Shown piece after piece: positions 30,392 through 60,275 of a stretch of 64,000 bases of DNA. Made by a program: the position numbers and the translations under genes. The notes below the pieces were generated by a model that worked only from the letters and a program-made list of their open reading frames with translations, was not told where the DNA came from and searched no databases. The stretch comes from Oscillospiraceae bacterium (GTDB taxonomy: Bacteria; Bacillota; Clostridia; Oscillospirales; Ruminococcaceae). Within the stretch, counting starts at the first letter, position 1. Every line of letters starts with the position of its first letter. The DNA is taken from positions 1 through 64,000 of the forward strand of contig SVNC01000007.1 in the NCBI GenBank assembly GCA_015067025.1, read 5' to 3'.

Positions 30392-30411
30392 CGGAAAGGA
30401 ATGATAGATAA

Positions 30412-31410: not shown

Positions 31411-31441
31411 TAACGAAAAATAATATAAGGAGGGGAAAGAA

Positions 31442-32062: not shown

Positions 32063-32096
32063 TAAAATTAAACCTAAAGGAAAGGTAATAAAGACT

Positions 32097-32537: not shown

Positions 32538-32761
32538 TGTTAGTAGTAACAAGAAAAACTGACGAAAGCCTTACGATTTCCGATAACATCGAGATAACGG
32601 TACTGGAAATAACAAAGGACAGAGTTAAAATAGGAATTTCAGCTCCGAAGGATGTAAAGATAATCCGTAACGAGCTTAAGGATGCACAGGATATGAATAA
32701 GCAGTCATCAGCGGCATTGCCTAAAGCGGCGATGGAAGCGTTGCTTGGCATGAAGAAATGA
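32537..32761 (+). CDS. csrA: Carbon storage regulator CsrA
   Basis: The 74-residue RNA-binding dimer begins MLVVTRKTDESLTISDNIEI and includes the conserved IGISAPKDVKIIRNEL. In Bacillus, CsrA blocks flagellin mRNA translation until FliW sequesters it. Translational coupling with fliW (TAATG) ties the two levels together. GAGGAGGGAAATGAGTA lies upstream. Confidence 0.97.
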   Translation: MLVVTRKTDESLTISDNIEITVLEITKDRVKIGISAPKDVKIIRNELKDAQDMNKQSSAALPKAAMEALLGMKK

Positions 32762-32782
32762 TCACAGAGAGGACGAAGTACA

Positions 32783-42651: not shown

Positions 42652-42784
42652 AATATCAGCTAATTAAGTAAAATTGCAAAAAATTAAGCAATAAAAAATG
42701 ACGAATTTTTTTGTGCAAATTTAACAAATTTTCAAAAATCCAAAAAAACAGGTAAAAAAAACACGAAAAAATTCATTTCATTTT

Positions 42785-42798
42785 GGAAATCGTTTACA
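42785..42798 (-). promoter_or_regulatory. cre-like box (candidate CcpA operator)
   Basis: Read on the minus strand, TGTAAACGATTTCC fits TGWAAACGNTWNCA except at the last base. It lies about 175 bp upstream of the promoter, farther than most repressing cre sites. Carbohydrate transport genes downstream make it plausible but it remains a guess. Confidence 0.35.
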
Positions 42799-42973
42799 CA
42801 GAAAATAGAAGAAATTCAGACAAAAATCGCAAGATATTGTGTTAACTGAATGTGAACTCGTCTTTTTTTACAAAAAAACACATTTCAGTTTGTTCAAAAT
42901 GCACATAGCTTTTTTGACCCTTGAAACCTCTTATTTATATGGGTTTGCAATGGTGAAAACTACCTTATTTTTC

Positions 42974-43002
42974 TTGACAGAGAGATGAAAATTTGTTATA
43001 AT
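42974..43002 (+). promoter_or_regulatory. Strong promoter of the transport locus
   Basis: Both hexamers are perfect: TTGACA (42974-42979), 17 bp, TATAAT (42997-43002). The start of transcription would be near 43009, about 160 bases before the first ATPase gene. Confidence 0.88.
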
Positions 43003-43168
43003 TACTATGTTATAGACTCTTAATGCGTTTTGTGTATTTCATCTAAAAGCAGGGTTGATATGGGCAAATAAATCGGTCGATATTGTACATAATGCTTAAA
43101 AAACATAAAACTTCGGAAACGACATCTTCTTTACGGAATGTCACGACAAACAAGAGGAATTTTTACTT

Positions 43169-43879
43169 ATGGAAACGATTTTAAAAGCGGTAAATATCAC
43201 TCGCAGTTTTAAGATCAATGATAAGACTACCGTCCACGCCTTAAAGGATATCAACATCGAGGTGGAAAAGAATAAGCTTGTGGTACTGAGAGGCCGTTCG
43301 GGTTCAGGTAAGACGACGCTTATAAACATCCTTGGTGCACTTGACCGCCCCACTTCGGGAGAGGTGATCTTTGACGGAAACACCATTACAGGTCTTTCCG
43401 ATACGGGCATGGATAAGCTGAGAAGAAAGGATATGTCCTTTGTTTTCCAGTCGGTTGCACTTATCCCTACGATGACTGCGTTTGAAAATGTTGAGTTTGC
43501 CATGCGACTGGTTGGCGCACCCTACTCCGAAAGAGTAAAGCGTGCTAAGGAATGCCTTATCAGAGTCGGACTTGAAAAGAGAATGCACCACAGACCCGGT
43601 GAGCTTTCAGGCGGTGAGCAGCAGAGAGTTGCCATTGCGAGAGCCATCTCCAATAAGCCCAAGCTTATCTTTGCGGATGAGCCTACAGCGGCACTGGATA
43701 CACCGACGGGACTTGCGGTAATGAATCTCTTTAAAGAGCTTGTGCGGACTGACGGACTCACGATAGTAATGACGACACACGATACAGCCATGATGGACCT
43801 GTGCGACGTTGTTTATACCCTTGATGACGGTGTGATAACCGACGTTAAGGTGAACGACGAAGAAACCACTACAGAATAA
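43169..43879 (+). CDS. ABC transporter ATPase, MacB/LolD type
   Basis: The 236-residue ATPase has Walker [11 protein letters not shown], the Q-loop [17 protein letters not shown], signature [14 protein letters not shown], Walker [13 protein letters not shown] and TTHD switch. The [19 protein letters not shown] region is of the MacB/LolD/FtsE type, which normally energises FtsX-like permeases. No such permease is near. The downstream permeases are MalF/MalG types that normally use MalK-type ATPases with a C-terminal regulatory domain, absent here. AAGAGGAATTTTTACTT precedes the ATG. Confidence 0.9.
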
Positions 43880-43901
43880 GCTTTGAAACGATTTTCAAAG
43901 C
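43880..43901 (+). promoter_or_regulatory. Perfect inverted repeat between the two ATPase genes
   Basis: GCTTTGAAA (43880-43888), CGAT, TTTCAAAGC (43893-43901) starts immediately after the stop codon and is followed by ACTTTTTCA. It could be a weak terminator or attenuator, or an operator for a dimeric DNA-binding protein. The AbrB-like fusion encoded next door is an obvious candidate to test. Confidence 0.5.
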
Positions 43902-43965
43902 ACTTTTTCAATTCAGGTAATCGTTATCTTAAACAACGGACACGGTACGGTAAAGGAGGTATCAT

Positions 43966-44925
43966 ATGCCACAAAGAGTAATGCTTGCACCACCTGAAAA
44001 CGTGATGGTGCAATGCGAAAACCTTGTAAAGATCTATAAGACGACAGACGTTGAAGTAATGGCTCTGCAGGGACTTGACCTGACGGTCGAGCGAGGAGAG
44101 CTTATGGGTATAGTGGGTGCCAGCGGCAGCGGTAAATCAACACTGCTTAATATGCTGGGTGCACTTGATAAGCCTTCGGCAGGAAGCCTTTACGTAGACG
44201 GCAAAGATCTTCTTAAATTTGATGAAGAGGATCTGATAAAGTATAAAAGAGAAACGGTAGGCTTCGTATGGCAGAACAACGCCAGAAACCTTATCCCCTA
44301 TCTTACGGCCATTCAGAACGTTGAAATGCCCTTGCTTTTATCGGGACATAAAAACCGTCACGAAAGAGCAACGGAGCTTCTTGAAATGGTAGGACTGGGA
44401 GCAAGAAAGAATTCCCTTTTGGGACAGCTTTCAGGCGGTGAGCAACAGAGAGTTGCGATCGCCATCGCTCTTTCCAATAATCCAAGCCTCTTGCTTGCGG
44501 ACGAACCCACCGGTGCGGTGGATACGAAGACTGCGGCAATGGTGCTTGACGTGTTCAGAAATCTGAACAGACAAATGGGCGTTACGATAATCATCGTAAC
44601 TCACGACACAAATCTTTCAAAGTCCATCGACAGAGTAGTTGCCATCCGCGATGGCAGAACCTCAAGCGAAATGCTGAGAAGACCTGCTTCTAACCTGTCC
44701 TTTGATGAACTTCAGAAGATGAGTGAGCAGCAGCGTGCCGAGCACGAAGCACTGCAAAGGGCAAAGAGCGAGCAGGAAGAGCTCGTTGTTATTGACCGTG
44801 CAGGCAGACTGCAGATTCCAAAAGAATATCTTGAAGCTCTTGGTATCAAGGGTGGAGACAAGGTGAGGGTAGAACTGGAGGAAGGAAAGATATCTCTTTA
44901 CAACTCTGATTTCAACCGGCACTGA
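43966..44925 (+). CDS. ABC ATPase fused to a C-terminal AbrB/SpoVT-like domain
   Basis: The 319-residue protein starts with a MacB/LolD-type ATPase: [47 protein letters not shown] and VTHD. After a charged helical linker (about 235-270, QQRAEHEALQRAKSEQEELV) the last 48 residues read as a swapped-hairpin AbrB/MazE/SpoVT domain (IDRAGRLQIPKEYLEALGIK, then GGDKVRVELEEGKISLYN). Such domains usually bind DNA as dimers, so transport activity and gene control could be linked. It lacks the residues of a MalK regulatory domain. AAAGGAGGTATCAT precedes the ATG. Confidence 0.88.
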   Translation: MPQRVMLAPPENVMVQCENLVKIYKTTDVEVMALQGLDLTVERGELMGIVGASGSGKSTLLNMLGALDKPSAGSLYVDGKDLLKFDEEDLIKYKRETVGFVWQNNARNLIPYLTAIQNVEMPLLLSGHKNRHERATELLEMVGLGARKNSLLGQLSGGEQQRVAIAIALSNNPSLLLADEPTGAVDTKTAAMVLDVFRNLNRQMGVTIIIVTHDTNLSKSIDRVVAIRDGRTSSEMLRRPASNLSFDELQKMSEQQRAEHEALQRAKSEQEELVVIDRAGRLQIPKEYLEALGIKGGDKVRVELEEGKISLYNSDFNRH

Positions 44926-45004
44926 TAAATATCCTTAACAAGTCGAATGTTAAAAATCTTCGATTAAGCATAAAAAGTAAATTTTCAGAAAGGTGGATTT
45001 AACT

Positions 45005-48000
45005 GTGGCAATCAGAACGAGCAGGATGAAAAGAATCATCGCAGGCATACTTTCAGCAACGACTATTATGTCTTCGGTAATAATTTCGATTCCCGCAGCA
45101 AGTGCAGAGGAAACACAGTCCAGCACAACAACAGGCTCTTCGAGTACATCAAGCGTAGAAATTACAGGTACCGAAGGCAAGTACAGCAAGTACTACAATG
45201 AATATGTGGCTCAGGGCGTAGCAAAGCCCGATAAGGAGATCACTATCTATGCTGCCGACTATACGGGAGGCACGATAGACGGAACGACCTTTACAAAGGG
45301 TACATCTGACGTAGCACTTTTAGGTTCTCTTACAGCATCTCTTGAGGATGTGGCAGGAGGCAGCAACGGCTACCAGAATCTCAAGACTTTCCTTGCGGAA
45401 AAAACAGATCTTGAGACAAACAGACTTGAAACTATCAAGTGGAGAAACGACAAACTTACGCTTACATATAAGTTTACAGTTCCCGAAACGGGTCTTTACA
45501 ACTTAGAAGCTATCTACTACCCCATCTCAGGTTCAGAAACTTCTAATACAGTACTTGATATCGGTCTTAAGCTTGACGGCGAATATCCCTTCACAGCGGC
45601 AAAGGACCTGACTCTCGACCGTTACTGGAAGGATGAATCCGAAATCAAGCGTGACGGTAAGGACAACGATCTTCGTCCCGGTCAGATCACGTACGACTGC
45701 TGGGTAAAATATCCTATCAAGGATAAGGAAGGTCTTTACAACGATCCTTACTTCTTCTATCTTGAAAAGGGCGAACATACTCTTGAGATCGAAGGTATCA
45801 GAACCTACGGCGTTTTCCATTCCTTCACCTTCAAGAACTATGATGAGCTTATCAGCTACGAAAGCATCAAGCCCACAGAAGATGAGATCCAGAACACACC
45901 CGCTCTTACGTCAAAGAACGAGGAACTCGGTTCAAACACGATCTTCCTTCAGGCAGAAGAACCTCTGTACAAGACAGCATCCACACTTTATGCTACATAC
46001 GACAGAACAACATATATGACAAATCCCAGCCATCCTACAAAGCAGAGATACAACACAGTAGGTCAGGCAACCTGGAATAAGTCAACACAGGCTATTACAT
46101 ATAGCTTCAAGGTTGAAAACGACGGTTACTACCGTTTCAACTTCAAGGCAAGACAAAATCAGATGAGAGGCTTCTTCTCCAACAGAAGAATCTACATCGA
46201 CGGTGCAGTTCCCTGCAAGGAGCTTGATGACGTACAGTTCGTATATTCACCCGACTGGCAGTCAGTAACTCCCAAGGATGAGGCAGGAAATGACATTTAT
46301 ATCTACCTCACAGCAGGCGAAGAACACACCATTACAATGGAAGCGATCCCCGGTTCTATCGGTGCGGTTATGCAGAGACTTGACGACCTCATCTTAGAAC
46401 TTAACCAGTATTACAGACGAATACTCATGATCACAGGTCCTGACCCTGATGAATTCAACGACTACTTCGTAGAAAAGAAGATTCCCGATCTTATCCCCGC
46501 ATTTGAAAGAATAGTAAAGAGCCTCCGTGAAGAAAAAGAAGGCATCGAAAAGCTCACAAAGAAGGGCTCCGAAGCTGCTGCACTCGAAACAATGGCTATC
46601 TATCTTGAAAGATGTATCGAAAAGCAGGAAGATATTCCGATAATGGCTGCAAGCATCAAGGATAGTATCTCATCCGTATCAGCATGGATGCGTGACTATC
46701 GTGACCAGCCCTTAGAGCTTGACTACATTGAAATTGCTACCTGCCACGAGAACTTCTCCGGTGCAACAGGCAACTTCTTCAGCGAATTCTTATTCGGTTT
46801 CAACTCCTTCATCGGTTCATTCTTTGAAGACTATACAGTTCTTTCCGACTCCAGTGCTACGTCACTTGACGTATGGGTATCCCTCGCACGTGACCAGGCA
46901 ACAGTTGTTAAGAACCTCGTTGACAACAAGTTCAACTCTAACCCCGCATACAATGGTACACAGGCTTCTATAAACCTCGTTCAGGGTTCTATCCTTGAAG
47001 CAACACTCGCAGGTAAGGGTCCTGAGATCGCCCTCTTTATCGGTGGTGACTTCCCCATCCAGCTTGCGGCAAGAGGACTGCTCGTGGATATCACACAGTT
47101 TAAGGATTATGAACAGGTAACAAGGCGATTTGCGGATGACGCAATGACACTTTACGAATACAACGACGGTACAAAGACAGGTGTTTACGGTCTTCCCGTA
47201 TCACAGAACTTCCCGATGCTGTTCTACCGTACCGACGTACTTGAAGAGCTTGGCTTTGAAGGTCCTCCGAAGACATGGGATGAGCTTATTGAAATGCTCC
47301 CCACTCTCCAGAGAAAGTACCTCGACGTAGGTCTTATCCTTCCCCAGAACATCTCTTCCAACACCTTTGACTTAGGTAACACCTTCGTATTACTTATGCT
47401 TCAGTCAGGTCAGGATCTTTACAACGAAGATCTTTACACAACTGACTACAGCCAGATAAAGACATCTGATATCAAGAATCTGAACCTTACAAACTTTATG
47501 ACTCAGGATTCTATCAAGGCGTTTACAAAGTGGACAAAGTTCTACACAGTATTCAGCTTTGACCAGACCTTCGACGCATTCTCAAGATTCAGAACGGGCG
47601 AAATGCCTCTTGTAATTCAGTCGTACACATTCTACAATCAGTTATCAGTAGCCGCACCCGAAATCAAGGGTCTTTGGGACTTCACGATAGTTCCCGGCAC
47701 TGTAAGAGAAGATGGTACAATAAGCCACGCTGCAAACTCTGCAGGTGCAGGCGCAATTATCTTCAACAAGGTTTCCAATCAGGCTGCAGCCTGGGATTTC
47801 ATCAAGTGGTTCACAAGCACAGACGTTCAGATCGACTACGGTAAGCAGATCGAAGCACTTATGGGTCCTATGGGTCGTTTCGATACAGCTAACGTAGAGG
47901 CTCTCGAACAGCTCCCCTGGTCAACCGCTGAATATGAAAAGATAAGCGCTCAGCAGAGCGAACTTCGTGAAGTACCGATCATTCCCGCTTCATACGCAGT

Positions 48001-48136
48001 AACAAGACATGTAAACAACGCATTCAGAATGGTTGTTAACGATGCAGGAAACCCCAGATACACTCTTATGAGCTATAACGATCAGATCAAGTCTGAAATC
48101 GTTCGTAAGTATCAGGAGCTTTCCAGCATGAAGTAA
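45005..48136 (+). CDS. Giant extracellular solute-binding protein with N-terminal beta-sandwich regions
   Basis: From GTG 45005 the protein has 1,043 residues. It opens with a Sec signal peptide (RMKRIIAGILSATTIMSSVI, predicted cleavage after ASA at residue 34). Two regions that read like carbohydrate-binding beta-sandwiches follow at about 75-290 (LTLTYKFTVPETGLYNLEAI; FFYLEKGEHTLEIEG) and 310-465 (AITYSFKVENDGYYRFNFKA; YLTAGEEHTITMEA). A helical segment leads into a type 1 sugar-binding protein from about 610 to the end (GPEIALFIGG, YGLPVSQNFPMLFYRTDVL, PKTWDELIEMLP, AAWDFIKWFTS). Such binding proteins are usually 400-550 residues. GTG 45005 has AAAGGTGG upstream; a GTG at 44993 lies inside that site. 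There is no lipobox. Confidence 0.9.
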   Translation: MAIRTSRMKRIIAGILSATTIMSSVIISIPAASAEETQSSTTTGSSSTSSVEITGTEGKYSKYYNEYVAQGVAKPDKEITIYAADYTGGTIDGTTFTKGTSDVALLGSLTASLEDVAGGSNGYQNLKTFLAEKTDLETNRLETIKWRNDKLTLTYKFTVPETGLYNLEAIYYPISGSETSNTVLDIGLKLDGEYPFTAAKDLTLDRYWKDESEIKRDGKDNDLRPGQITYDCWVKYPIKDKEGLYNDPYFFYLEKGEHTLEIEGIRTYGVFHSFTFKNYDELISYESIKPTEDEIQNTPALTSKNEELGSNTIFLQAEEPLYKTASTLYATYDRTTYMTNPSHPTKQRYNTVGQATWNKSTQAITYSFKVENDGYYRFNFKARQNQMRGFFSNRRIYIDGAVPCKELDDVQFVYSPDWQSVTPKDEAGNDIYIYLTAGEEHTITMEAIPGSIGAVMQRLDDLILELNQYYRRILMITGPDPDEFNDYFVEKKIPDLIPAFERIVKSLREEKEGIEKLTKKGSEAAALETMAIYLERCIEKQEDIPIMAASIKDSISSVSAWMRDYRDQPLELDYIEIATCHENFSGATGNFFSEFLFGFNSFIGSFFEDYTVLSDSSATSLDVWVSLARDQATVVKNLVDNKFNSNPAYNGTQASINLVQGSILEATLAGKGPEIALFIGGDFPIQLAARGLLVDITQFKDYEQVTRRFADDAMTLYEYNDGTKTGVYGLPVSQNFPMLFYRTDVLEELGFEGPPKTWDELIEMLPTLQRKYLDVGLILPQNISSNTFDLGNTFVLLMLQSGQDLYNEDLYTTDYSQIKTSDIKNLNLTNFMTQDSIKAFTKWTKFYTVFSFDQTFDAFSRFRTGEMPLVIQSYTFYNQLSVAAPEIKGLWDFTIVPGTVREDGTISHAANSAGAGAIIFNKVSNQAAAWDFIKWFTSTDVQIDYGKQIEALMGPMGRFDTANVEALEQLPWSTAEYEKISAQQSELREVPIIPASYAVTRHVNNAFRMVVNDAGNPRYTLMSYNDQIKSEIVRKYQELSSMK

Positions 48137-48205
48137 AACGCTGATTTTTAAAAGGAGATGAGGAGCTTCTCCTCTTCTCCTATAAATACTGAGGAGGTTA
48201 TCGGT

Positions 48206-49141
48206 TTGTTCAACAAGGAAAAATCGCAGTATATTGAAGACAGTAAATTCAGATATACTCTGCGTGAGATGAAGAAGAACAGCAGCGTTTATCTGCTGAT
48301 GGCTCCTTACTTCATTCTCTTCACAATATTTACAATTATACCGGTTATACTCGCTTTGCCTATGGGCTTTACGAATTTTAACATGGTACAGTTCCCACAG
48401 TTTGTAGGACTTAACAACTTCTACGCTCTGATCTTAGAGGACGAAGTATTCTTAACAGCTATCCAGAACACACTGGTATTTGCTATTATCACAGGTCCTT
48501 TAAGCTACATACTCTGCTTTATACTCGCATGGCTGATAAACGAAATGCCCAGAGTTTTAAAGACGGTATTCACATTCATCTTCTATGCTCCCACTCTTGC
48601 AGGTAACATCTATACTACGTGGCAGCTCATCTTCTCAGGTGACACATACGGTATCGCAAACTCCTACCTGCTCGACTTAGGTATCATCAACAGTGCTCGT
48701 CAGTGGCTGACAGACGCTAACTACATCATGGGTGTAGTTATTATAGTACAGCTCTGGATCTCACTGGGTGCCGGCTTCCTTGCTCTTCGTGCAGGTCTTC
48801 AGGGTATTCCTAAGGACAGATACGAGGCAGGTGCTATTGAAGGTATCAAGAACCGTACACAGCAGCTCCTGCTGGTTACAGTTCCTGCGATGGGACCTCA
48901 GCTTCTGTTCGCAGCGGTTATGCAGATCACAGCTTCCTTTACAGCAGGTGACGTAGGCCGTTTCTTAACTGCTTTCCCAAGTACAGACTATGCTGCACAT
49001 ACAATTATGACTCACGCCTTCGACTACGGCTCAATCCGTTACGAAATGGGTTATTCATCAGCGATATGCTTTGTATTGTTTGCAGTAATGCTCCTTGCCA
49101 ACTGGGGTATCAAAAAGCTCCTGGGCAAGTATCTTGACTAA
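48206..49141 (+). CDS. Sugar ABC permease, MalF/UgpA type (pair 1)
   Basis: A 311-residue permease with about six transmembrane helices (YLLMAPYFILFTIFTIIPVI first) and the EAA loop YEAGAIEGIKNRTQQLLLVT that docks on the ATPase. The frame is open from ATG 48158, but that codon is only one base from its AAAGGAG. TTG 48206 has GAGGAGG at good spacing, so the shorter form is chosen. It directly follows the binding protein gene and precedes its MalG partner. Confidence 0.88.
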   Translation: MFNKEKSQYIEDSKFRYTLREMKKNSSVYLLMAPYFILFTIFTIIPVILALPMGFTNFNMVQFPQFVGLNNFYALILEDEVFLTAIQNTLVFAIITGPLSYILCFILAWLINEMPRVLKTVFTFIFYAPTLAGNIYTTWQLIFSGDTYGIANSYLLDLGIINSARQWLTDANYIMGVVIIVQLWISLGAGFLALRAGLQGIPKDRYEAGAIEGIKNRTQQLLLVTVPAMGPQLLFAAVMQITASFTAGDVGRFLTAFPSTDYAAHTIMTHAFDYGSIRYEMGYSSAICFVLFAVMLLANWGIKKLLGKYLD

Positions 49142-49187
49142 TCGGAGGACATCGGAATGTATGCTTCTCTAAGAAAGGAAGGTAGTT

Positions 49188-50051
49188 ATGAAAATAGCTA
49201 AGAAGGGAAGAAAAAGATACGGCGGCTCTCTCGGCGGCGATATTTTCATCTTCGTGCTGCTGACGTTGCTCGGTCTTTTCATGCTTTTCCCTATATATCT
49301 CTCAATTATACAGTCATTAAAGCCGGTTGAAGAATTATTCCTCTTCCCGCCTCGTCTGTATGTATCAAATATCACAGATCAGAACTTCTCAGACCTGCTT
49401 GCTACAGCGTCTAACATGTGGGTTCCGTTCTCAAGATACGTATTCAACTCTGTATTTGTATCAGTAGTTGTAACAGTAACTCAGTTGCTCTTTGCGTCCT
49501 CTGCGGCTTATGCCTTAGCAAAGGTTAAGTTCCCCGGCGTAAAGGCGATGAACAAGATCATCGAAACAGCTCTGCTGTTCACATCAACAGTAACTTACAT
49601 CATGCAGTACATGGTAATGGCAACACTCGGTATGATCGATACATATTTCGCTATTATCCTGCCCTTTATCGCAACACCTATGGGACTTTTCCTTATGCGT
49701 CAGTTTATGGGACAGATCCCCGACAGTATGATAGAGGCTGCAAAGCTTGATGGTGCAAGTCACATCAGAATCTGCTGGCAGGTCGTAATGCCCAACGTTA
49801 AGCCCGCTTGGCTTACACTTCTTATTTTCGCATTCCAGGGTGCATGGCAGATCACTGGTTATTCATTTATCTATAACGAGGCATTAAAACCCATTCCGAC
49901 CGTTATGCAGCAGATAAGTGCCGCAGGTATCGCCCGTGCGGGTGTTGCCGCAGCCGCAGTAGTAATTACGATGCTGCCTCCTATGATAGTATTCGTATTC
50001 TGTCAGAGCAGCGTTATGGAAACAATGGCTCACAGCGGTCTTAAGGATTGA
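49188..50051 (+). CDS. Sugar ABC permease, MalG/UgpE type (pair 1)
   Basis: A 287-residue permease with about six transmembrane helices and the EAA loop IEAAKLDGASHIRICWQVV. MalG-type features include LMFPIYLSIIQSLKP and a long periplasmic-facing first loop. AGAAAGGAAGGTAGTT precedes the ATG. It pairs with the preceding gene as the channel. Confidence 0.93.
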   Translation: MKIAKKGRKRYGGSLGGDIFIFVLLTLLGLFMLFPIYLSIIQSLKPVEELFLFPPRLYVSNITDQNFSDLLATASNMWVPFSRYVFNSVFVSVVVTVTQLLFASSAAYALAKVKFPGVKAMNKIIETALLFTSTVTYIMQYMVMATLGMIDTYFAIILPFIATPMGLFLMRQFMGQIPDSMIEAAKLDGASHIRICWQVVMPNVKPAWLTLLIFAFQGAWQITGYSFIYNEALKPIPTVMQQISAAGIARAGVAAAAVVITMLPPMIVFVFCQSSVMETMAHSGLKD

Positions 50052-50085
50052 TTTACACTTATACTAAACAGAAAGGATGATTTTA

Positions 50086-51978
50086 GTGCCAAAGATGAAG
50101 AAAATTGCTACAGCAGTTGTTTCATTTGTATTGGCGGCTTGCTCACTGTCTACCACAGTTTTCGCAGATCAGCCCTATGAAGGCTATAACTACGACTGGT
50201 GGGGCGATCCTGTTCCTTCACAGACAGGCTACGTAGTAGACAGAGTAATCACAGGTCGTGATTTCAAGACAGGTAAACGCTATAATACGGAAGCACAGCT
50301 TAAAGAAATAGCTGCAGAGCATAATAAAGTGTACTTTGCGTCACAGCAGGAGATTGATGATTATAATGCAAAGCTTGCTGTTTATCAGGCTTACGAAGAT
50401 AAGCTGAAGGAATACGAAAAGTACGAAAAGGCTCTTGAAAAGTACAATACATATCTTGAAAAGAAGGCTGCTTACGAGCAGTATGAAAAGGATTTAGCTG
50501 ATTATGAAGCTAATCCCGACGGCAAGGAAAAGCCCAAGAAGGTTTCAAAGCCCAAGGAGGTTGAAAAGCCTGTTGAGGTAGCAAAGCCTGAGCCTGTAGA
50601 AGAGGTAAAGGAATTAAAGCCCGAAGACATTCTTATGACAAACGTTGACCTCGGTGCTTTCTCAGAACCCTCTGACCTTTTCGTTGACAGAGAAACTGAA
50701 GATCTATATATAGTAGACAGCGGTAATAACAGAATTCTCGTTACCGATGTAAACTATGAAAAGGAAGTAGTTATCCTCGATTACTTCTACAACCCCAAAA
50801 CAAAGAAATACGAAACACTCAATAATCCTCACGGTATCTTCGTTCGTCACGTAAAGAACGAAGAAACGGATGAAGATGTAATAATGCTTTACATTGCTGA
50901 CTTCGACAACAACCGTGTTTTAGGTGTATATTCAGATGGTACGGTGTTCCAGGAATTTACAAAGCCTTCCTCAGAATTCTACGAGGATAAGGTAACCTTC
51001 CAGCCCAACAAGGTAGTTGTTGACGTTGCGGGTAACGTTTACGTAAACATCAAGTCCATCACAACCGGTGCGGTTATGTTCGCACCCGACGGTTCCTTCA
51101 GCAACTACTTCGGTGCTAACCGTGTTGAACAGACAGCACAGGCTATCGCAAACAAGTTCTGGAAGACCATCTTAGACCGTGAAGCTGCCGCAAACTTCAT
51201 TCAGGCAGTTCCTATGGAATTCTCCAACTTCGATATTGACGACGAAGGCTTTATCTACACAGTTACAGAAGCAAAATCTGCAACAACAGACGTATTCAAG
51301 AAGATGAACCCTGCAGGTGAGAACATCCTCATTAACTTAGGTTTCTCTGATTACATTTACGGCGATATGATCTCTTACTACTGGAAGGGCGTATCCTACG
51401 GCTCACAGATCAACGACGTTGATATTGACGAAGACGGAACGATCAGACTTCTTGACTTCGGTAACGGCCGTATCTTCGAGTACACAGACGAATGTGACCT
51501 GCTGTTCATTTACGGCGGCAAGGGCGAGCAGAAGGGCTTATTTACATCCGTAAAGGCTATCGAAGCTTACAACAACGTCGTTTACGTTCTTGACTCCCGT
51601 AAGGGCTCTATCACAACCTTCAAGCGTACAGAGTTTGGTGATATCGTTCACGAAGCTATGAGCTTATATACAGAAGGTAAGTATGAAGAAGCACGTGAAC
51701 CCTGGAACGAGGTATTAAGCCGTGACTCCAACTACTGGTTCGCATACATCGGTCTTGGTAACGCTGAGCTTTCTCAGGGTAACTACCAGCAGGCTATGGA
51801 CTACTTCTACCGCAACAGCCGTCCCGGTTACGACAGAGCGTTCAAGCAGTTCCGTATGCAGTTCATTCGTGATAACTTCAATTTATTTATGATAATCATT
51901 GCAGTTGTTATAATACTCGGTATTGTAGTAAGCAAGCTGCTTAAGATGAGAAAAAAGAAAAAAGCGGGAGGTAAATAA
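50086..51978 (+). CDS. Secreted NHL-propeller/TPR protein with C-terminal membrane anchor
   Basis: A 630-residue protein. It has an N-terminal signal peptide (KKIATAVVSFVLAACSLS) that contains a possible lipobox LAAC and also a VFA-D cleavage site, so lipid modification is uncertain. A Lys/Glu/Tyr-rich coiled coil and Pro-Lys hinge span about 80-185. About six NHL-type propeller repeats follow (FVDRETEDLYIVDSGNNRIL; MLYIADFDNNRVLGVYSDG; DVDIDEDGTIRLLDFGNGRI). Then come two TPR-like units (YTEGKYEEAREPWNEVLSRD; YIGLGNAELSQGNYQQAMDY) and a transmembrane helix with a Lys-rich cytoplasmic end. NHL and TPR both mediate protein contact, so it may be a scaffold for the transporter. GTG 50086 follows GAAAGGAT; ATG 50077 overlaps that site. 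Confidence 0.82.
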   Translation: MPKMKKIATAVVSFVLAACSLSTTVFADQPYEGYNYDWWGDPVPSQTGYVVDRVITGRDFKTGKRYNTEAQLKEIAAEHNKVYFASQQEIDDYNAKLAVYQAYEDKLKEYEKYEKALEKYNTYLEKKAAYEQYEKDLADYEANPDGKEKPKKVSKPKEVEKPVEVAKPEPVEEVKELKPEDILMTNVDLGAFSEPSDLFVDRETEDLYIVDSGNNRILVTDVNYEKEVVILDYFYNPKTKKYETLNNPHGIFVRHVKNEETDEDVIMLYIADFDNNRVLGVYSDGTVFQEFTKPSSEFYEDKVTFQPNKVVVDVAGNVYVNIKSITTGAVMFAPDGSFSNYFGANRVEQTAQAIANKFWKTILDREAAANFIQAVPMEFSNFDIDDEGFIYTVTEAKSATTDVFKKMNPAGENILINLGFSDYIYGDMISYYWKGVSYGSQINDVDIDEDGTIRLLDFGNGRIFEYTDECDLLFIYGGKGEQKGLFTSVKAIEAYNNVVYVLDSRKGSITTFKRTEFGDIVHEAMSLYTEGKYEEAREPWNEVLSRDSNYWFAYIGLGNAELSQGNYQQAMDYFYRNSRPGYDRAFKQFRMQFIRDNFNLFMIIIAVVIILGIVVSKLLKMRKKKKAGGK

Positions 51979-51980
51979 AT

Positions 51981-52619
51981 ATGAGATTTGATTTAGATAT
52001 GCCCGCTTGGAAGTGGCCATTCTACGTGGCAAGACACCCCTTTGAGGGCTTTGAAGATCTTCGTTGGAAGAAAGCCTACTCTATGAGAGTATCACTTGTT
52101 ATCGTACTGTGCTTCTTTATCATCACAGTATGTCAGCAGGTTATGACGGGCTTCTTATTCAACAACAGCTATGTAAAGGTATTTAACATAGTACCTCTTT
52201 TAGTGCAGACAATCGTTCTGTTCTTTACATGGGTTATAGGTAACTGGTCGCTTTGTACCTTATTCGACGGCGAAGGTTCAATGAAGAACATCTGCTGTAT
52301 AAGTGCATATGCCCTTGTTCCCTATCTTATCACTCAGATCGTGGTAATTATCGCAAGTAACGTACTGTTAAGAGGCGAAAGTGCATTCATAATGTTCTTC
52401 CAGTATCTCGGACTTGTATGGAGCGTTGTGCTTATGATCTCAGGTATGAAGACTGTTCACCAGTATTCTGTACCCAAGACACTCCTCGCTATGTTCTTTA
52501 CAGTAGTTGCAATGGTAATCATACTGTTCCTGCTCGTACTTTTAATGAGCCTTTTCCAGCAGGTATACGTATTTGGTTTCTCAATCTATACAGAGCTTAT
52601 GTATAGATTCAGTATTTAG
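51981..52619 (+). CDS. YIP1-family membrane protein
   Basis: A 212-residue integral membrane protein with about five transmembrane helices after an amphipathic start (WKWPFYVARHPFEGFEDLRW). GNWSLCTLFDGEGSMKNICC and YALVPYLI match the YIP1 pattern, in which the conserved core ends in a loop with a Gly-rich acidic turn. Bacterial YIP1 proteins have no settled function. It starts two bases after the stop of the NHL protein gene, so the two are probably translated together. CGGGAGGTAAATAAAT precedes the ATG. Confidence 0.8.
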   Translation: MRFDLDMPAWKWPFYVARHPFEGFEDLRWKKAYSMRVSLVIVLCFFIITVCQQVMTGFLFNNSYVKVFNIVPLLVQTIVLFFTWVIGNWSLCTLFDGEGSMKNICCISAYALVPYLITQIVVIIASNVLLRGESAFIMFFQYLGLVWSVVLMISGMKTVHQYSVPKTLLAMFFTVVAMVIILFLLVLLMSLFQQVYVFGFSIYTELMYRFSI

Positions 52620-52633
52620 TCGGAGGTGTGAAA

Positions 52634-54976
52634 ATGTTAAAATTAAAAAAGAAAATTTTAGCTGTTTTACTCACAGCCGCTATGGTACTTTCCATGAGCT
52701 CAGTCGTTGCCTGGTCTGATGAATTACCTGCAACGGATGATACAGTTCAGACAGAAACCACAGATGATAATGCAGCAGAAGGCGAAGACGCTGAGGAAGG
52801 CGAAGAAGGCGAAGAAGGTTCAGCGCTTCTTACCGATGAACAGGGTCTTGCAAAGATGAAGAAGTATGCTGAAAACAGCAACTACGCTCTTTATCTTAAC
52901 GAGGATACGACAATATTCGCCGTACAGTCAAAGGCTGACAAGCACGTATGGTGGAGTGCTCCTCTCAATTCAGAAAGCGACCCCAACGCTAAGCCTGCAC
53001 AGAGAAAAAAGATGCAGTCACCCTTCTATATTGAATTTGGTGACGTTAAAACACATACCGCTCAGAGCCTCAATGCTTATGAAGGTAGTATAAAGGATAA
53101 GGACTTTACGATCAGCGAGATCGAAAACGGTGTAAGAATTGACTATTCTATCGCAAAGATAGGTGCTGTAATTCCTATGACTATCGTTCTTGAAGATGAT
53201 AACGTAAACGTATCTATCTTAAGTGAAGAGATAAAGGAACCGCCTGTTAGCGATACAGAAGGTAACGCTATCCTCACTATCGGACTTATGCAGTTCTTTG
53301 GTGCTGCAGGCATTGGCGAAGATGGTTATATGATCGTTCCCGATGGTTCAGGTGCTATAATCAATTACAACAACCAGCGTATTGAAGCCAGAGAATATTC
53401 AAATAAGATCTATGGTCTTGATTCATCTGTAACACAGCTCAAGCGTCCCGCAAAGACAGAGCAGGTTTATCTGCCTGTAATGGGTGCTATCACAATGGGC
53501 GACAGCACAGATCACGGATTTATGGCAATCTGTGAATCCGGTGAGACCTGTGCAACTGTAAATGCAGCCGTTTCAATACAGAATGCAACCTCATACAACA
53601 ATTGCTGGTACGAATTCGACGTAAGAACAACAGACACATACTATATGGGTACTCGTCTTCTTACAGTATTTGAAGCAGGCGAAATCAAGCAGCCCACACT
53701 TTCAGTAGGCTACTACCTCTTATCAGACAAGGATCTTTCATACGTTGATGTGGCTGAAGACTACAGAAACTACCTTATTGAAGAAAAGGGTCTTCAGGAC
53801 AATAAGGATAAGATCAAGTCCAGCTACTATCTTAACGTATTCGGCGGCACTGTAAAGGCACAGTCCATTGCAGGCTTCCCCATAAACCTTGAAACATCCG
53901 CTACAACCTACGATCAGGCACAGGATATTATGAAGCAGCTCGCAGAACTCGGCGTTGATGACATTACGCTCACTTACTCCGACTTCAACACAGCAGGTAT
54001 CAAGGGACTTATCAGTGCAGGCGTTGATTATTCCGGCACACTCGGCGGTAAGAACGACTTCAAGGAGCTTCAGTCTTATGTTGAAAGCGTAAACGGACAG
54101 ATATTCCCCAGCGTAGGCATTACATATATGAAGGACTCCGGCAACGGTTATTCCTATTCACTCAATGCCTGCAAGCAGACAACAAAGGCTTATGCAACAG
54201 TAAACAACTGGGATATCGCATTTGGTATTCCTCACCAGGTAAGACTTGTTACAAAGACAACACTTTCACCTTATTACTGGCCTGACCTTTTCAGAAAGCT
54301 CAGAGAATCCTTTAATAATGAAGGAATCAAGACTATCAGTCTTGGCAATGCAACAACTCTCCTTTACAGTGACTTCAGCCGTGGCGACTACACAAGATAT
54401 GACGCTATGACAGAGATCATCGACGGTCTCAAGAAGTTCAAAGAAGCAGGAATTACAGTTTTAGCAGATGGTGCAAACGCTTACGCACTGCCCTATGTTG
54501 ATTACGTTACAGGCGTTCCGCTGACATCCAGCAACTTTGACCTGTTCGACTATGATATTCCCTTCTATTCACTTGTAATACACGGCCTTGTTCCTTATAC
54601 AACAACAGCTATCAATGCAAGTGCAAACGCAACGGATACTATCATGTTATCAATAGCTACAGCAACTCCTGTAAACTATGATATGATGTATACAAACCCC
54701 AACAAGTTCACAGACAGCGATTACGATTCACTGTTCTATTCAAACTACAAGGGTTGGATCGAACCCTCTGCAAATGCATACAAGCTCTTTAAGGAAAATC
54801 TTTCTGATCTTGCAAACAAGAAGATCACAGATTATGAGCGTGTATCCACATACGTTACAAAGACAACCTTTGAAAACGGTGTGACAGTTACTGTAGATAC
54901 AAAGAATCTCACAGTAGATATTAACGGCAAGGAAGTTGACCTTGTACAGTACGGATTGAAAGGAGAAGATAAATAA
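52634..54976 (+). CDS. Large secreted DUF5696-like protein (possible glycosidase-like barrel)
   Basis: A 780-residue secreted protein. The signal peptide is LKLKKKILAVLLTAAMVLSM, followed by an acidic low-complexity stretch (AEEGEEGEEG, about 55-68). Recognisable later blocks are IVPDGSGAIINYNNQRIEAR, DVAEDYRNYLIEEKGLQ, LAELGVDDITLTYSDFNTAG, VLADGANAYALPYVDYVTGV and a C-terminal FENGVTVTVDTKNLTVDING. The alternating strands and helices in the middle suggest a TIM-barrel-like, glycoside-hydrolase-related fold. This is inferred, and catalytic residues cannot be assigned. ATG 52634 follows GGAGG with 7-base spacing; GTG 52628 overlaps the site. Its stop overlaps the next start. Confidence 0.75.
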   Translation: MLKLKKKILAVLLTAAMVLSMSSVVAWSDELPATDDTVQTETTDDNAAEGEDAEEGEEGEEGSALLTDEQGLAKMKKYAENSNYALYLNEDTTIFAVQSKADKHVWWSAPLNSESDPNAKPAQRKKMQSPFYIEFGDVKTHTAQSLNAYEGSIKDKDFTISEIENGVRIDYSIAKIGAVIPMTIVLEDDNVNVSILSEEIKEPPVSDTEGNAILTIGLMQFFGAAGIGEDGYMIVPDGSGAIINYNNQRIEAREYSNKIYGLDSSVTQLKRPAKTEQVYLPVMGAITMGDSTDHGFMAICESGETCATVNAAVSIQNATSYNNCWYEFDVRTTDTYYMGTRLLTVFEAGEIKQPTLSVGYYLLSDKDLSYVDVAEDYRNYLIEEKGLQDNKDKIKSSYYLNVFGGTVKAQSIAGFPINLETSATTYDQAQDIMKQLAELGVDDITLTYSDFNTAGIKGLISAGVDYSGTLGGKNDFKELQSYVESVNGQIFPSVGITYMKDSGNGYSYSLNACKQTTKAYATVNNWDIAFGIPHQVRLVTKTTLSPYYWPDLFRKLRESFNNEGIKTISLGNATTLLYSDFSRGDYTRYDAMTEIIDGLKKFKEAGITVLADGANAYALPYVDYVTGVPLTSSNFDLFDYDIPFYSLVIHGLVPYTTTAINASANATDTIMLSIATATPVNYDMMYTNPNKFTDSDYDSLFYSNYKGWIEPSANAYKLFKENLSDLANKKITDYERVSTYVTKTTFENGVTVTVDTKNLTVDINGKEVDLVQYGLKGEDK

Positions 54977-56220
54977 TGAGTGATTCAAATTTCAATCAGA
55001 ATGAAGAATTAAACGAAATCAAGGATGAAGCTACTGAAGTAGCAGAAAACGTTGCTGAGGCTACCGAACAGGTAGCTGATGCGGCAGAAGTTGCAGAAGA
55101 AACAGTAGAAAACACTGCTGAAGAAGTGGCAGAGGTTGCTGAAGAAGTAGCAGAAGCTGCCGAAGAAGCAGCTGAACCTGCAAAGAAAAAGGCAGTACAC
55201 ATGACAGCTTCCGCTGCATCACTCAACGCTGAAGGCGAAGAGGTAGACATCCGCCGCAGACAACCTAAAAAGGAAGTCAAGATCAAGAAGACCCGTATTT
55301 CCTACGAAAGAAAGAAGGGACTTTACGGTTACGGCTTCGTTGCTATCTGGATCGTCGGCGTAATCTATATGTTCATTATTCCTCTTATCCAGTCTGCCTG
55401 GTACTCTTTATGTAAGACTGACCTGGTTACAGATATGGCTATGGCTCAGGAATACGGAATGTCCTCCGTTGGTATTTATACAGAGTGGAACAACTTCAAT
55501 AACTACCACGAAGCATTACTGAGAAACACCAAGTTCCTGCCCGCACTTACCGAATCTCTCGGTAATATGCTGATGCAGGTGCCTATGGTAATGATATTCT
55601 CACTGTTTATTGCACTTCTCTTAAACCAGAAGTTCAGGGGCAGAACACTTGCCCGTGCGGTATTCTTCCTGCCCGTACTTGTTGCGACAGGTCCTGTTAT
55701 CGCAGTTATCCGAGGCGATATTTCGACAAACGGTGTATCCGGTGCTGAACAGTTCAGCTCACTTTTCCAGACCGACCTTGTAGACGAGTTGCTATCGTTC
55801 TTAGGTCTGTATAACTTAAGTGAAGAATTGACCACCACCATCGAAACCATTACATCAGATATCTTCAACCTTATCTGGGCGGCAGGTATTCAGATACTGA
55901 TATTCCTTGCAGCTCTCCAGCAGATTCCTACTTCCGCTAAGGAAGCGGCGTCCATGGAAGGTGCTACAGGTTGGGAATTCTTCTGGAAGATAACCTTCCC
56001 GATGATAAGCCCGATGATTTTGGCGAACCTGATCTATACGGTTATTGATACTTTCGTAGACTCAGAAAACCCTGTAATGGAAATCGTTATAACACAGTCA
56101 CGAGAGCTTAACTACGGTCTGTCAGCGGCTATGGCGTGGATATACTTCGCAATAGTTGCGGTGGCTCTGGGTATTATCGTATTGATCGTATCGAAGTTCG
56201 TATTCTATGAAAATGATTAA
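54976..56220 (+). CDS. Sugar ABC permease, MalF type (pair 2) with an Ala/Glu-rich N-terminus
   Basis: A 414-residue permease. Residues of about 1-70 are an acidic heptad-like repeat (TEQVADAAEVAEETVENTAE; EVAEVAEEVAEAAEEAAEP), followed by a very basic patch (RRRQPKKEVKIKKTRISYER) and about six transmembrane helices. The EAA loop is KEAASMEGATGWEFFWKITF. The N-terminal repeat would lie in the cytoplasm as an amphipathic helix. The start overlaps the DUF5696 stop codon by one base. AGGAGAAGATAAATA precedes the ATG. Confidence 0.9.
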   Translation: MSDSNFNQNEELNEIKDEATEVAENVAEATEQVADAAEVAEETVENTAEEVAEVAEEVAEAAEEAAEPAKKKAVHMTASAASLNAEGEEVDIRRRQPKKEVKIKKTRISYERKKGLYGYGFVAIWIVGVIYMFIIPLIQSAWYSLCKTDLVTDMAMAQEYGMSSVGIYTEWNNFNNYHEALLRNTKFLPALTESLGNMLMQVPMVMIFSLFIALLLNQKFRGRTLARAVFFLPVLVATGPVIAVIRGDISTNGVSGAEQFSSLFQTDLVDELLSFLGLYNLSEELTTTIETITSDIFNLIWAAGIQILIFLAALQQIPTSAKEAASMEGATGWEFFWKITFPMISPMILANLIYTVIDTFVDSENPVMEIVITQSRELNYGLSAAMAWIYFAIVAVALGIIVLIVSKFVFYEND

Positions 56221-56232
56221 GGAGGTGTAGTT

Positions 56233-57522
56233 GTGAGCGAAAAAGATTTAGAATCAATGAATGATGTTTCATTTGACGATTTACTGGTTAATGACGCCGC
56301 ATCTGCACCTGCAGATGAAGCTTCTGCGGAAGCTGTCGGTGAGGCGATCGCCCAGATCAATGAAGAAGTAACAGAAACTGCTGAAGAAACAGCAGAAACA
56401 GCAAAGTCAATCACAACTGTATCTGCTGACGAGCTCCAGTCAGGTGTTACTCCCATTGAACGTAAAATGACACGCAAGGAAAAGAAGTTAGAAAAGAAGC
56501 AGGCGAAGGAAGCTAAGAATATCTACCACGTAAGTAACTGGCAGATAATCAAGAACTACCGCACCTACAACAAGCAGGAAAGAGCGCACTACAGATACAT
56601 CTTCGGCAGAAGAATTGCTGAAAAGGTATGGCCTGTATTCCGTTTCCTGATCCTTTTCGGACTGGGCTTCGTAATTCTTTATCCTCTGCTTTATATGCTT
56701 TCCACATCTATAAGACCTCAGATCGAAATGACTGACCCTTCAGTTATGTGGATTCCTAAGAACGTCATCTTCTCAAACTTCGTAGAAGTATGGCAGGCTA
56801 TCAATTTCCCCGAAGTATTACTGAGAACTATACTCATCAACGTTGTTTGTTCAGTACTCCAGGTTATCACCTGCGGTATCACAGGCTACGGTTTTGCAAG
56901 ATTTAAGTTCAAGGGTAAGGGACTTATGTTCGGTATCGTTATTTTCCAGATCATCGTTCCCGTACAGGTTGTACTTATCCCTCTGTATATGCAGTTCAGA
57001 TTCTTTGACGTATTCGGTATCATCAAGCTTATCACAGGTACCCCCCTGAACCTTGTAAGTACTCCTGCTGCTCTTTATCTGCAGGCACTCTTCTGCAACG
57101 GTATCAGAGCAGGTGTGTTCATCCTTCTGTTCAGACAGTTCTTCAGAGGACTGCCCAAGGAACTTGAAGACGCTGCATACCTCGATGGTTGCGGTCCTGT
57201 AAAGACCTTCGTAAAGGTTATGATACCCAATGCAAAGACATCTTTCTTAACAGTATTTATCTTCTCAATCGTATGGTACTGGAACGACTCCTATGTAACA
57301 GGTATGTTCTTCACAGAGCCTTATACGATCGCTATGGAGATCAACAACATCGCTACAAAGATGATGATCTTCTTCACAGGCGAAACAAACGGTATGGCTT
57401 CTGACTATCTGGTATGGATCGAAGCAGGCTGTCTGCTCTCCCTCTTACCGATACTCATTATGTACATCTTCTTACAGAAGCAGTTCGTTGAAGGTGTTGA
57501 GCGTTCAGGTCTCGTAGGCTGA
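56233..57522 (+). CDS. Sugar ABC permease, MalG type (pair 2) with an acidic N-terminus (GTG start)
   Basis: A 429-residue permease. Residues of about 1-75 are acidic and Ala/Glu/Thr-rich (EAVGEAIAQINEEVTETAEE), then comes a Lys-rich turn (MTRKEKKLEKKQAKEAKNIY) and about six transmembrane helices. The EAA loop is LEDAAYLDGCGPVKTFVKVM. The acidic-then-basic start mirrors that of its partner. GGAGGTGTAGTT precedes the GTG. It is the last gene before a terminator. Confidence 0.9.
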   Translation: MSEKDLESMNDVSFDDLLVNDAASAPADEASAEAVGEAIAQINEEVTETAEETAETAKSITTVSADELQSGVTPIERKMTRKEKKLEKKQAKEAKNIYHVSNWQIIKNYRTYNKQERAHYRYIFGRRIAEKVWPVFRFLILFGLGFVILYPLLYMLSTSIRPQIEMTDPSVMWIPKNVIFSNFVEVWQAINFPEVLLRTILINVVCSVLQVITCGITGYGFARFKFKGKGLMFGIVIFQIIVPVQVVLIPLYMQFRFFDVFGIIKLITGTPLNLVSTPAALYLQALFCNGIRAGVFILLFRQFFRGLPKELEDAAYLDGCGPVKTFVKVMIPNAKTSFLTVFIFSIVWYWNDSYVTGMFFTEPYTIAMEINNIATKMMIFFTGETNGMASDYLVWIEAGCLLSLLPILIMYIFLQKQFVEGVERSGLVG

Positions 57523-57545
57523 TTGCTTAAAGCAAAACAAAAATT

Positions 57546-57573
57546 AAGGGAAACCGTAAGGTTTCCCTTTTTG
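57546..57573 (+). terminator. Terminator of the transport locus
   Basis: AAGGGAAACC-GTAA-GGTTTCCCTT is a perfect 10 bp stem, followed by TTTG. Confidence 0.92.
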
Positions 57574-57615
57574 TCTTTATAAAAATGCTAATTTCATAAA
57601 GTTTAGTCTCGCCGT

Positions 57616-57645
57616 ATAAAAAGCGAACCTTATAACAGGTTCGCT
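57616..57645 (-). terminator. Terminator of the VTC-DUF4956 operon
   Basis: On the minus strand AGCGAACCT-GTTATA-AGGTTCGCT is followed by TTTTT. It lies about 40 bases past the stop of the beta-helix lipoprotein gene and faces the convergent terminator at 57546-57573. Confidence 0.88.
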
Positions 57646-57682
57646 AATTTTATTTATCCACTTTTGAACGTGACCCCGCCGT

Positions 57683-59566: not shown

Positions 59567-59582
59567 CGTTATCCTCCTTATA

Positions 59583-60275
59583 TCACAGAAGTTCTCTGTT
59601 ATCAGCGTTCATGGACATAAGATTTATTTCGAGGTTACCGTTACGGCAACGAAGCTCGTCAATAAACGCTTTTTCTTCTCCTGCCTTTTTAAGTGTTACG
59701 TTGTATGTAAGACGGTTAAGACTTCCGAGATTTGTAGTCTTTACCTGAGAAAGCTCGTGCTTTGTTGTATACTTTTCAAATAAATCATCGAACATAGAGC
59801 CGTATTCCAAGTCCTCGGGTACAGTTATACGCAGTACTCTGCGAAGAGATGCGTTCTTACCCTCGCCAAAGCCGATAGCATTAAGCAATAAGAATGCTCC
59901 GCCTGTGACTGCCACGAATAAAAGACCGTATAAGGGATAACCCATACCGCATACAAGACCTACTGCCATTGCAAGAAAGATTATACCTATCTCCTTTGCA
60001 GTACCGGGTATACTACGGAAGCGTACAAGAGAGAAAGTACCTGCCGCCGCAACACCTGCACCGAGCGAACCGCTTACCATCATAATAACGATGGCAACTA
60101 CCGCAGGGAGTATAGCAAGAGTTACCACAAAGCTCTTTGTATAAACCGACTTGAACATATAGATAAGCGCCAACGCTATACCAAGCGCGAGGGCAGAAAC
60201 TACCCCTATAATGAAGTTTGGTACTGATATTGTACCAAGACCTGTTGTAAATAATGCATTAAATAACTCGTCCAT
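59583..60275 (-). CDS. DUF4956 membrane protein
   Basis: A 230-residue protein with four to five transmembrane helices in the first 130 residues (ISVPNFIIGVVSALALGIAL; GSLGAGVAAAGTFSLVRFRS) and a soluble C-terminal domain containing LRITVPEDLEYGSMFDDLFE. GTFSLVRFRSIPGTAKEIG is the conserved core loop of the family. DUF4956 genes commonly sit beside VTC-domain genes, as here. The function is unknown. It overlaps the upstream VTC gene by 17 bases. Confidence 0.87.
   Translation of the reverse strand: MDELFNALFTTGLGTISVPNFIIGVVSALALGIALALIYMFKSVYTKSFVVTLAILPAVVAIVIMMVSGSLGAGVAAAGTFSLVRFRSIPGTAKEIGIIFLAMAVGLVCGMGYPLYGLLFVAVTGGAFLLLNAIGFGEGKNASLRRVLRITVPEDLEYGSMFDDLFEKYTTKHELSQVKTTNLGSLNRLTYNVTLKKAGEEKAFIDELRCRNGNLEINLMSMNADNRELL

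Follow-up and report, generated by a model that had tools for sequence, protein, structure and literature searches.

Introduction

How do the parts of a transport locus that holds two ATP-binding cassette (ABC) ATPases, two permease pairs, a very large solute-binding protein (SBP) and several accessory proteins work together, and do the ATPases belong to the permeases beside them? This question is raised by a same-strand gene row in a 64,000-nucleotide stretch of an Oscillospiraceae genome (contig SVNC01000007.1, positions 1 to 64,000; hereafter the window). An initial annotation, made from the letters of the window, had proposed a membrane-tethered complex for capture, trimming and import of glycans. 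Our analysis leads to a different reading, which we hold with somewhat more confidence than doubt: the locus would be a surface glycan-uptake operon with two CUT1-type importers and their accessories, energised by a MalK-type ATPase in trans, and the two ATPase genes at its head (LolD1 and LolD2) would provide the motor of a separate exporter. The locus itself is real and above chance, since its promoter is kept upstream in relatives and its gene order recurs in distant genera.

Results

An eight-gene core of two modules

The open reading frame (ORF) listing of the window gives ten ORFs on the + strand of the locus, spanning 43169-57522 (Table 1); the count of nine in the initial annotation was wrong, and its own list also sums to ten. 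Names were assigned by scans with Pfam and NCBIfam family models, which agreed with the identities proposed at first (ABC ATPases, a large binding protein, permease pairs, NHL/TPR, YIP1 and DUF5696 proteins). Eight of the ten, namely SBPbig, PermA1, PermB1, NHL/TPR, YIP1, DUF5696, PermA2 and PermB2, form a core that recurs across Bacillota, Butyrivibrio and Paenibacillus among others.

DUF5696 was found in the genome of the window (the own genome) and in all 35 other genomes of the same genus, in 50 of the 60 genomes of a set of relatives and, above cut-off, in 26 of the 299 genomes of a phylum sample, the own genome being included in the latter two counts. From the DUF5696 hits 80 loci were chosen by the analyst, several per genome and hence not independent, and three more were added for a total of 83: one from a Ruminiclostridium metagenome-assembled genome (L003) and two from plasmids of Butyrivibrio fibrisolvens (L062) and Paenibacillus cellulosilyticus (L063). 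For these loci the 'next gene' is the next same-strand ORF recognised at 35 bits at least, which is not strict adjacency. In 80 of the 83 loci DUF5696 is followed, as the next genes by this definition, by PermA2 and PermB2, and the remaining three loci stop at a contig edge. NHL/YIP1 comes next ahead of DUF5696, also in 80/83, as two genes in 51 loci and by best match as a single protein in 29 (L138, tallied as a fusion, carries NHL and YIP in two ORFs), the exceptions being a YIP1 split into two ORFs (L101) and two contig edges (L102 and L107). Directly ahead of NHL/YIP1, SBPbig-A1-B1 is found in 65/83; seven loci are at an edge and 11 are arranged otherwise, three of which (L101, L132 and L138) owe this to a split ORF alone. 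Moreover, all 25 genomes of the phylum sample that carry DUF5696, besides the own genome, also have SBPbig, a count that left out five genomes matching only the C-terminal SBP part, 556-958 (G066, G113, G151, G185 and G215), and kept two truncated by contig ends (G138 and G161). Three further genomes of the sample hold SBPbig without DUF5696, on contigs of 3-4 kb that end inside permease genes. The counts of 80/83, 80/83 and 25/25 amount to strong co-conservation of the core in other genomes, so that the central idea of the initial annotation holds.

One operon conserved everywhere was rejected, since the modules occur separately or swapped in some loci. NHL-YIP, DUF5696, A2 and B2 lack SBPbig-A1-B1 ahead of them in six loci (L119, L120, L125, L128, L129 and L135), the module order is swapped in L139 and L140, and L185 has SBPbig-A1-B1 alone, without the rest of the core. 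A small binding-protein gene is next behind PermB2 in 25/83 loci. Given modules apart or swapped and small binding proteins behind PermB2, the core looks like two importers with their own binding proteins, usually joined in one operon. The same separate and swapped modules would also suit two neighbouring importers that take different substrates and are merely co-regulated, with NHL, YIP1 and DUF5696 belonging to the second module only; we consider this unlikely, as the first module stands directly ahead in most loci and SBPbig is present in every sampled genome with DUF5696.

Four small binding-protein genes stand in a row behind one permease pair in L141, and five matched small binding-protein ORFs, some of them short, behind PermB2 in L118. 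In the own genome there are ten SBP matches in all, SBPbig counted among them. Six DUF5696 genes occur in one small genome of ~1.8 Mb (G045). A plasmid search with another DUF5696 query returned the same two records again, a single-protein search of genome contigs yielded one relative, and a scan of viral contigs with a Butyrivibrio DUF5696 query gave no relative.

The LolD pair tracks a remote FtsX permease

The best NCBIfam model for both ATPases is LolD, with scores under the equivalog cut-off. A strong match to the pair was found in 26 of 84 loci, window included (25 of the 83 fetched), all of the window's type. LolD2 is present in 28 of the 35 other same-genus genomes and in 3 of 24 genomes from elsewhere in the order, and in these three (G041, G050 and G057; loci L167, L168 and L169) the genes of an FtsX/MacB-type permease, LolD1 and LolD2 are contiguous. 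The permease has ~930 amino acids (aa; domains were checked in L167), and a HlyD-type adaptor gene precedes it in L169. In the own genome the ortholog of this permease (35% identical, E 6.7e-176) lies on another contig, just behind a HlyD/MacA-type adaptor gene, and none of the 52 ABC-ATPase matches of the genome is near this gene pair. FtsX was found in 27/35 same-genus genomes and in the same 3/24 others as LolD2. LolD2 and FtsX are concordant, present or absent, in 58/59 genomes, the one mismatch being G001, which is 86% complete. The two are on different contigs in the own genome and 26 of the same genus, and 2.15 Mb apart in the one-contig genome G014; hence the partner is present but on another contig or far off in 27/28 same-genus genomes with LolD2. 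Different contigs in fragmented assemblies do not prove distance alone, which is supplied by G014 and by the flanks in the own genome. Cut-offs for presence were 1e-80 for LolD2, 1e-60 for FtsX and 1e-90 for MalK, and the presence lists and coordinates for the co-occurrence counts were copied by hand from the search outputs.

Based on this co-occurrence and on the FtsX-LolD1-LolD2 rows in relatives, we conclude that LolD1/LolD2 most likely drive a MacAB-like exporter with split genes, of which those for the motor stand at the front of the importer operon. The initial annotation had counted both ATPases as part of the importer, and this part of it finds no support, since they are LolD/MacB-like and co-occur with a remotely encoded FtsX permease, and since the genome has a MalK-type ATPase at another site. 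All ten proteins might nevertheless form a single complex for capture, trimming and import, with both permease pairs driven by LolD1 and LolD2. The single strand, small gaps and shared promoter would agree with such a complex, as would the retention of LolD2 in most of the genus and its nearest solved relatives by sequence, which are importer ATPases for dipeptides. We give it a slim chance: the pair is confined to the window's type of locus, follows FtsX almost without exception and has a MalK-type alternative in the genome, and the EAA-type loops of the permeases are unchanged with or without LolD.

Two loci, L066 and L069 (genomes G003 and G006), keep the core without LolD and FtsX. For LolD, the DUF5696 tree requires two changes, the simplest account being a single gain where the clade begins and a single loss on the branch of L066 and L069; in this coding L080 was entered manually as 'present', the ATPase genes of its genome being on another short contig (L170). 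These two genomes also bear on a further alternative, in which the remote FtsX exporter and one permease pair have the LolD pair as a shared motor that couples export and import. Passages of PMC7658222 describe importer ATPases that serve several transporters, and the stable co-location through the clade, the promoter-proximal position and the lack of a close MalK in G026 (98% complete) would fit as well. However, sharing in those passages is confined to type I importers, and G003 and G006 retain all eight core genes with neither LolD nor FtsX, so that we regard a shared motor as very unlikely.

LolD2 carries an AbrB/MazE-like tail at residues 275-309 (window 44788-44892), which is above the Pfam cut-off and conserved in 16 aligned LolD2 proteins; it is odd for an ABC ATPase to have a fold of the DNA-binding type.

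An orphan MalK/MsmX-type ATPase as probable power supply

An EAA-type loop (E or D first, conserved G) is kept in all four window permeases and is alike in loci with or without LolD. Two features of the CUT1 type are present, namely paired EAA-loop permeases and an extracellular binding protein. A MalK-type ATPase is encoded outside the operon, on another contig, and would have to act in trans. Absence of MalK from the own genome had been considered and was rejected upon finding this one UgpC/MalK-type ATPase, which scores above the cut-off of the UgpC model and has no match to the BPD permease class on its contig. It is 58% identical to the Paenibacillus ATPase, which stands in front of its locus, and full-length copies with 83-99% identity occur in 30/35 same-genus genomes. 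Residues D77, R104, E110 and K154 of MsmX were tested as a signature in PMC7658222; the own MalK keeps D77, R104 and E110 and has Q at position 154, in a comparison made by eye and registered on K43. It is probably this orphan ATPase that powers the importers in trans, which would make their power supply the ordinary one.

In G006 the contig ends with a piece of MalK, 0.9 kb behind PermB2, that has 97% identity over 172 aa. A MalK gene directly behind the operon was rejected for this genome, since an opposite-strand ORF of 190 aa intervenes, which makes this nearness and not one operon. The N-terminal extensions of PermA2 (54976-55275) and PermB2 (56233-56532) are ~100 aa long, acidic and repetitive, and both proteins are longer in window-type loci than in most others.

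SBPbig and its candidate tether

SBPbig matches the SBP_bac_1/8 models of Pfam (SBP_bac_8, E 1.8e-24). Its C-terminal part is a sugar-type SBP, the best solved match being Lin1841 (E 3.6e-32) and the PDB matches being sugar-binding SBPs. In the N-terminal part, Golvesin_C was matched in 20/30 and CBM_35 in 13/30 members at E <=1 (best 4.6e-5 and 2e-6), by eye in two regions; the window SBPbig itself gave neither match at E <=1. The true start is probably GTG 45005, because GTG 44993, on inspection by eye, falls within what is likely to be the ribosome-binding site.

A crude scan for a lipobox cysteine was positive for 0/66 SBPbig members of at least 900 aa and for 14/31 small binding proteins. 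A secreted and non-lipidated SBPbig would need a tether, for which the NHL/TPR protein would be the natural candidate. The latter has a C-terminal membrane segment in 29/29 members of the window's type, and the NHL, TPR and Yip1 matches all lie within one protein in the six of six scanned from the 29 fused by best match. Thus, the membrane-tethered capture system of the initial annotation gains support from both the NHL-Yip1 fusions and the missing lipobox. As described in passages of PMC4887032 and PMC4338810, the Yip1-family protein YknW of the Bacillus YknWXYZ system modulates assembly of an adaptor-ATPase-FtsX pump; by analogy, Yip1 may help to assemble the permeases here. It is not simply the YknW counterpart of the split exporter, because loci and genomes that have neither LolD nor FtsX retain it together with the core.

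DUF5696 as a GH129-like protein

A profile of 35 DUF5696 members matches 8rzg and 5opq (best E 5.6e-10) as well as the GH129 NagBb structures (E ~2e-7), and a second profile from 25 members with E677, many of them shared with the first, gave the same matches more weakly (3.7e-9 and 2e-5). In PMC5698469, 5opq is described as GH129-like and as a proposed new family. At E <=0.01 the Pfam scan of the window protein returned DUF5696 alone and no GH129 match; PF11308 had no match in the 299 genomes, but its 14 controls gave none either. Plain GH129 membership was rejected on the lack of a Pfam GH129 match and the variable nucleophile column: the column aligned, via L058, with the likely nucleophile varies across DUF5696, and the alignments to GH129 structures stop short of that region.

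E677 is present in 55/55 aligned rows outside the window's clade and in 0/29 within it. W453 is kept in 48 of the 55 and replaced by F or Y in the 29 rows of the clade. The clade is well supported on the DUF5696 tree, where one loss of E677 suffices. In most relatives DUF5696 would probably act as an enzyme that processes glycans, and the window's clade would hold an altered or inactive, perhaps glycan-binding, form. The trimming that the initial annotation had proposed is therefore possible for the family at large, and the loss of E677 and W453 makes it doubtful here.

Layout of the locus and neighbouring genes

The features are collected in Table 1. Gaps between the ten genes are, in order, 86, 67, 21, 46, 25, 2, 8, -1 and 12 nucleotides (nt), and all ten would be carried by a single transcript. 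The perfect promoter claimed at the start of the locus was confirmed, and it is the sole perfect one among 36 sites listed for 41500-59500. In 21 of the 26 loci bearing the ATPase pair, window included, the region 5' of the first ATPase gene was checked, and a promoter was found in 21/21: in 19 it is exact and has the 17-nt spacer, in one the spacer is 18 nt, and in one TATACT replaces TATAAT. A like promoter precedes the SBPbig gene in L066 and L069, which have no ATPase pair. The terminator claimed at the locus end is likewise borne out, as a terminator-like hairpin with a T-rich tail.

Table 1. Features of the locus, in window coordinates
Feature	Position	Strand	Remarks
Promoter TTGACA-17-TATAAT with extended -10	42974-43002	+	12/12 consensus matches
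LolD1, LolD/MacB-like ABC ATPase	43169-43879	+	family models; assigned to remote FtsX-type exporter
LolD2, LolD/MacB-like ABC ATPase, LolD1 partner	43966-44925	+	family models; AbrB/MazE-like tail
Small hairpin between LolD2 and SBPbig genes	44942-44964	+	both-side changes at 2/6 pairs among 12 close relatives
SBPbig, secreted solute-binding protein, 1047 aa	44993-48136	+	CBM35/Golvesin-like N-terminal part, C-terminal SBP domain
PermA1, UgpA/MalF-type permease	48158-49141	+	NCBIfam only; EAA-type loop kept (EAG..G)
PermB1, UgpE/MalG-type permease	49188-50051	+	Pfam/NCBIfam; EAA loop
NHL + TPR protein	50077-51978	+	predicted extracellular, C-terminal membrane anchor
YIP1-family membrane protein	51981-52619	+	five hydrophobic segments
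DUF5696, secreted GH129-like protein without Glu at position 677	52628-54976	+	Pfam DUF5696 E 1.1e-148
PermA2, UgpA/MalF-type permease	54976-56220	+	long acidic N-terminal extension; just below Pfam cut-off
PermB2, UgpE/MalG-type permease	56233-57522	+	long N-terminal extension; family models
Intrinsic-terminator-like hairpin	57546-57569	+	T-rich tail

Another terminator-like hairpin lies between the two ATPase genes at 43880-43901. The changes in the small hairpin ahead of SBPbig are compensatory; by eye it was not recognised in the more distant loci printed. Converging genes on the - strand at 57683-60275 encode a Cthe_2159-type carbohydrate-binding protein and a DUF4956 protein, the next gene being VTC-type by eye only, and the flagellar genes FlgK, flagellin and FliD are located upstream at 28829-35386.

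Discussion

On balance, we favour a glycan-uptake operon made of two importers, working as follows. In the first module, secreted SBPbig, with its CBM35-like part and sugar-type SBP domain, would feed PermA1/PermB1. PermA2/PermB2 of the second module would be fed by the small binding proteins encoded right behind them in many relatives, and in this genus the binding protein for this pair would have to come from elsewhere. NHL/TPR and Yip1 may act as one membrane unit that tethers or scaffolds the non-lipidated SBPbig and helps permease assembly, and DUF5696 would process glycans in most relatives and perhaps bind them in the altered or inactive form present here. The permeases would be energised in trans by the orphan MalK/MsmX-type ATPase. 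LolD1/LolD2 would drive the adaptor-FtsX (MacAB-like) exporter encoded elsewhere and would be no more than co-expressed with the importers.

Several observations weigh against this arrangement. G003 (82% complete) has no close MalK, and G004, G006 and G007 have fragments only; more telling is G026, which is 98% complete and has just a 57% match over 310 aa. No small binding protein stands behind the second permease pair in loci of the window's type. The top PDB sequence matches of LolD2 are Rv1281c (4e-61), which we take to be a dipeptide-importer ATPase, and DppD (1e-57), followed by MJ0796 and LolD and later by MacB. The core genomes that lack LolD and FtsX, G003 and G006, are just 82 and 86% complete. 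The ATPase pair has kept its place in the operon even across deep branches of the clade, and this might reflect a functional tie to the importers. E677 is at most a candidate catalytic residue, and the nucleophile column is variable, so the whole DUF5696 family might be non-catalytic. Finally, the lipobox scan was a crude one. The boldest combination, and the least probable idea we entertain, is that the NHL/TPR-Yip1 unit docks both importers and the CBM-bearing SBPbig, with a captured exporter motor that is shared in this genus and couples import and export.

No paper on DUF5696 or on the eight-gene set was found in the open-access literature, a search in which most subscription journals were not covered. 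The parts are of known kinds; neither the gene set nor the splitting-off of the exporter motor seems to have been described in the literature covered. DUF5696 would thereby be placed in glycan uptake and linked to a distant enzyme family, and for bacterial Yip1 proteins a second ABC-transporter context would be added to that of YknW. The split exporter is a warning that ATPases within a sugar operon may not belong to the sugar transporter, and it offers a clean test case for ABC motors that find their permeases in trans.

Three known systems are closest. The DUF5696 profile is similar to GH129 (NagBb, 5wzn) and to GH129-like DagB (5opq) in the N-terminal domain and the initial portion of the barrel, whereas DUF5696 has no Pfam GH129 match and no conserved nucleophile column, and the window's clade also lacks E677 and W453. 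CUT1 importers with a multitask MsmX/MsmK-type ATPase resemble the present system in the SBP, the two EAA-loop permeases and an orphan UgpC-matching ATPase in trans, which here keeps three of the four MsmX signature residues. In contrast to them, two permease pairs are found in one operon here, the binding protein is ~1000 aa long with a CBM35-like part and without a lipobox, and NHL/TPR, Yip1 and DUF5696 are added. YknWXYZ of Bacillus, in which a Yip1-family protein serves as an ABC-transporter assembly factor, has its likeness in the Yip1 protein, adaptor, LolD-like ATPases and FtsX permease of this organism. Unlike there, Yip1 here is part of the importer core and is found without LolD, the ATPases are two distinct ones, one with an AbrB-like tail, and their genes are split from those of the adaptor and the permease.

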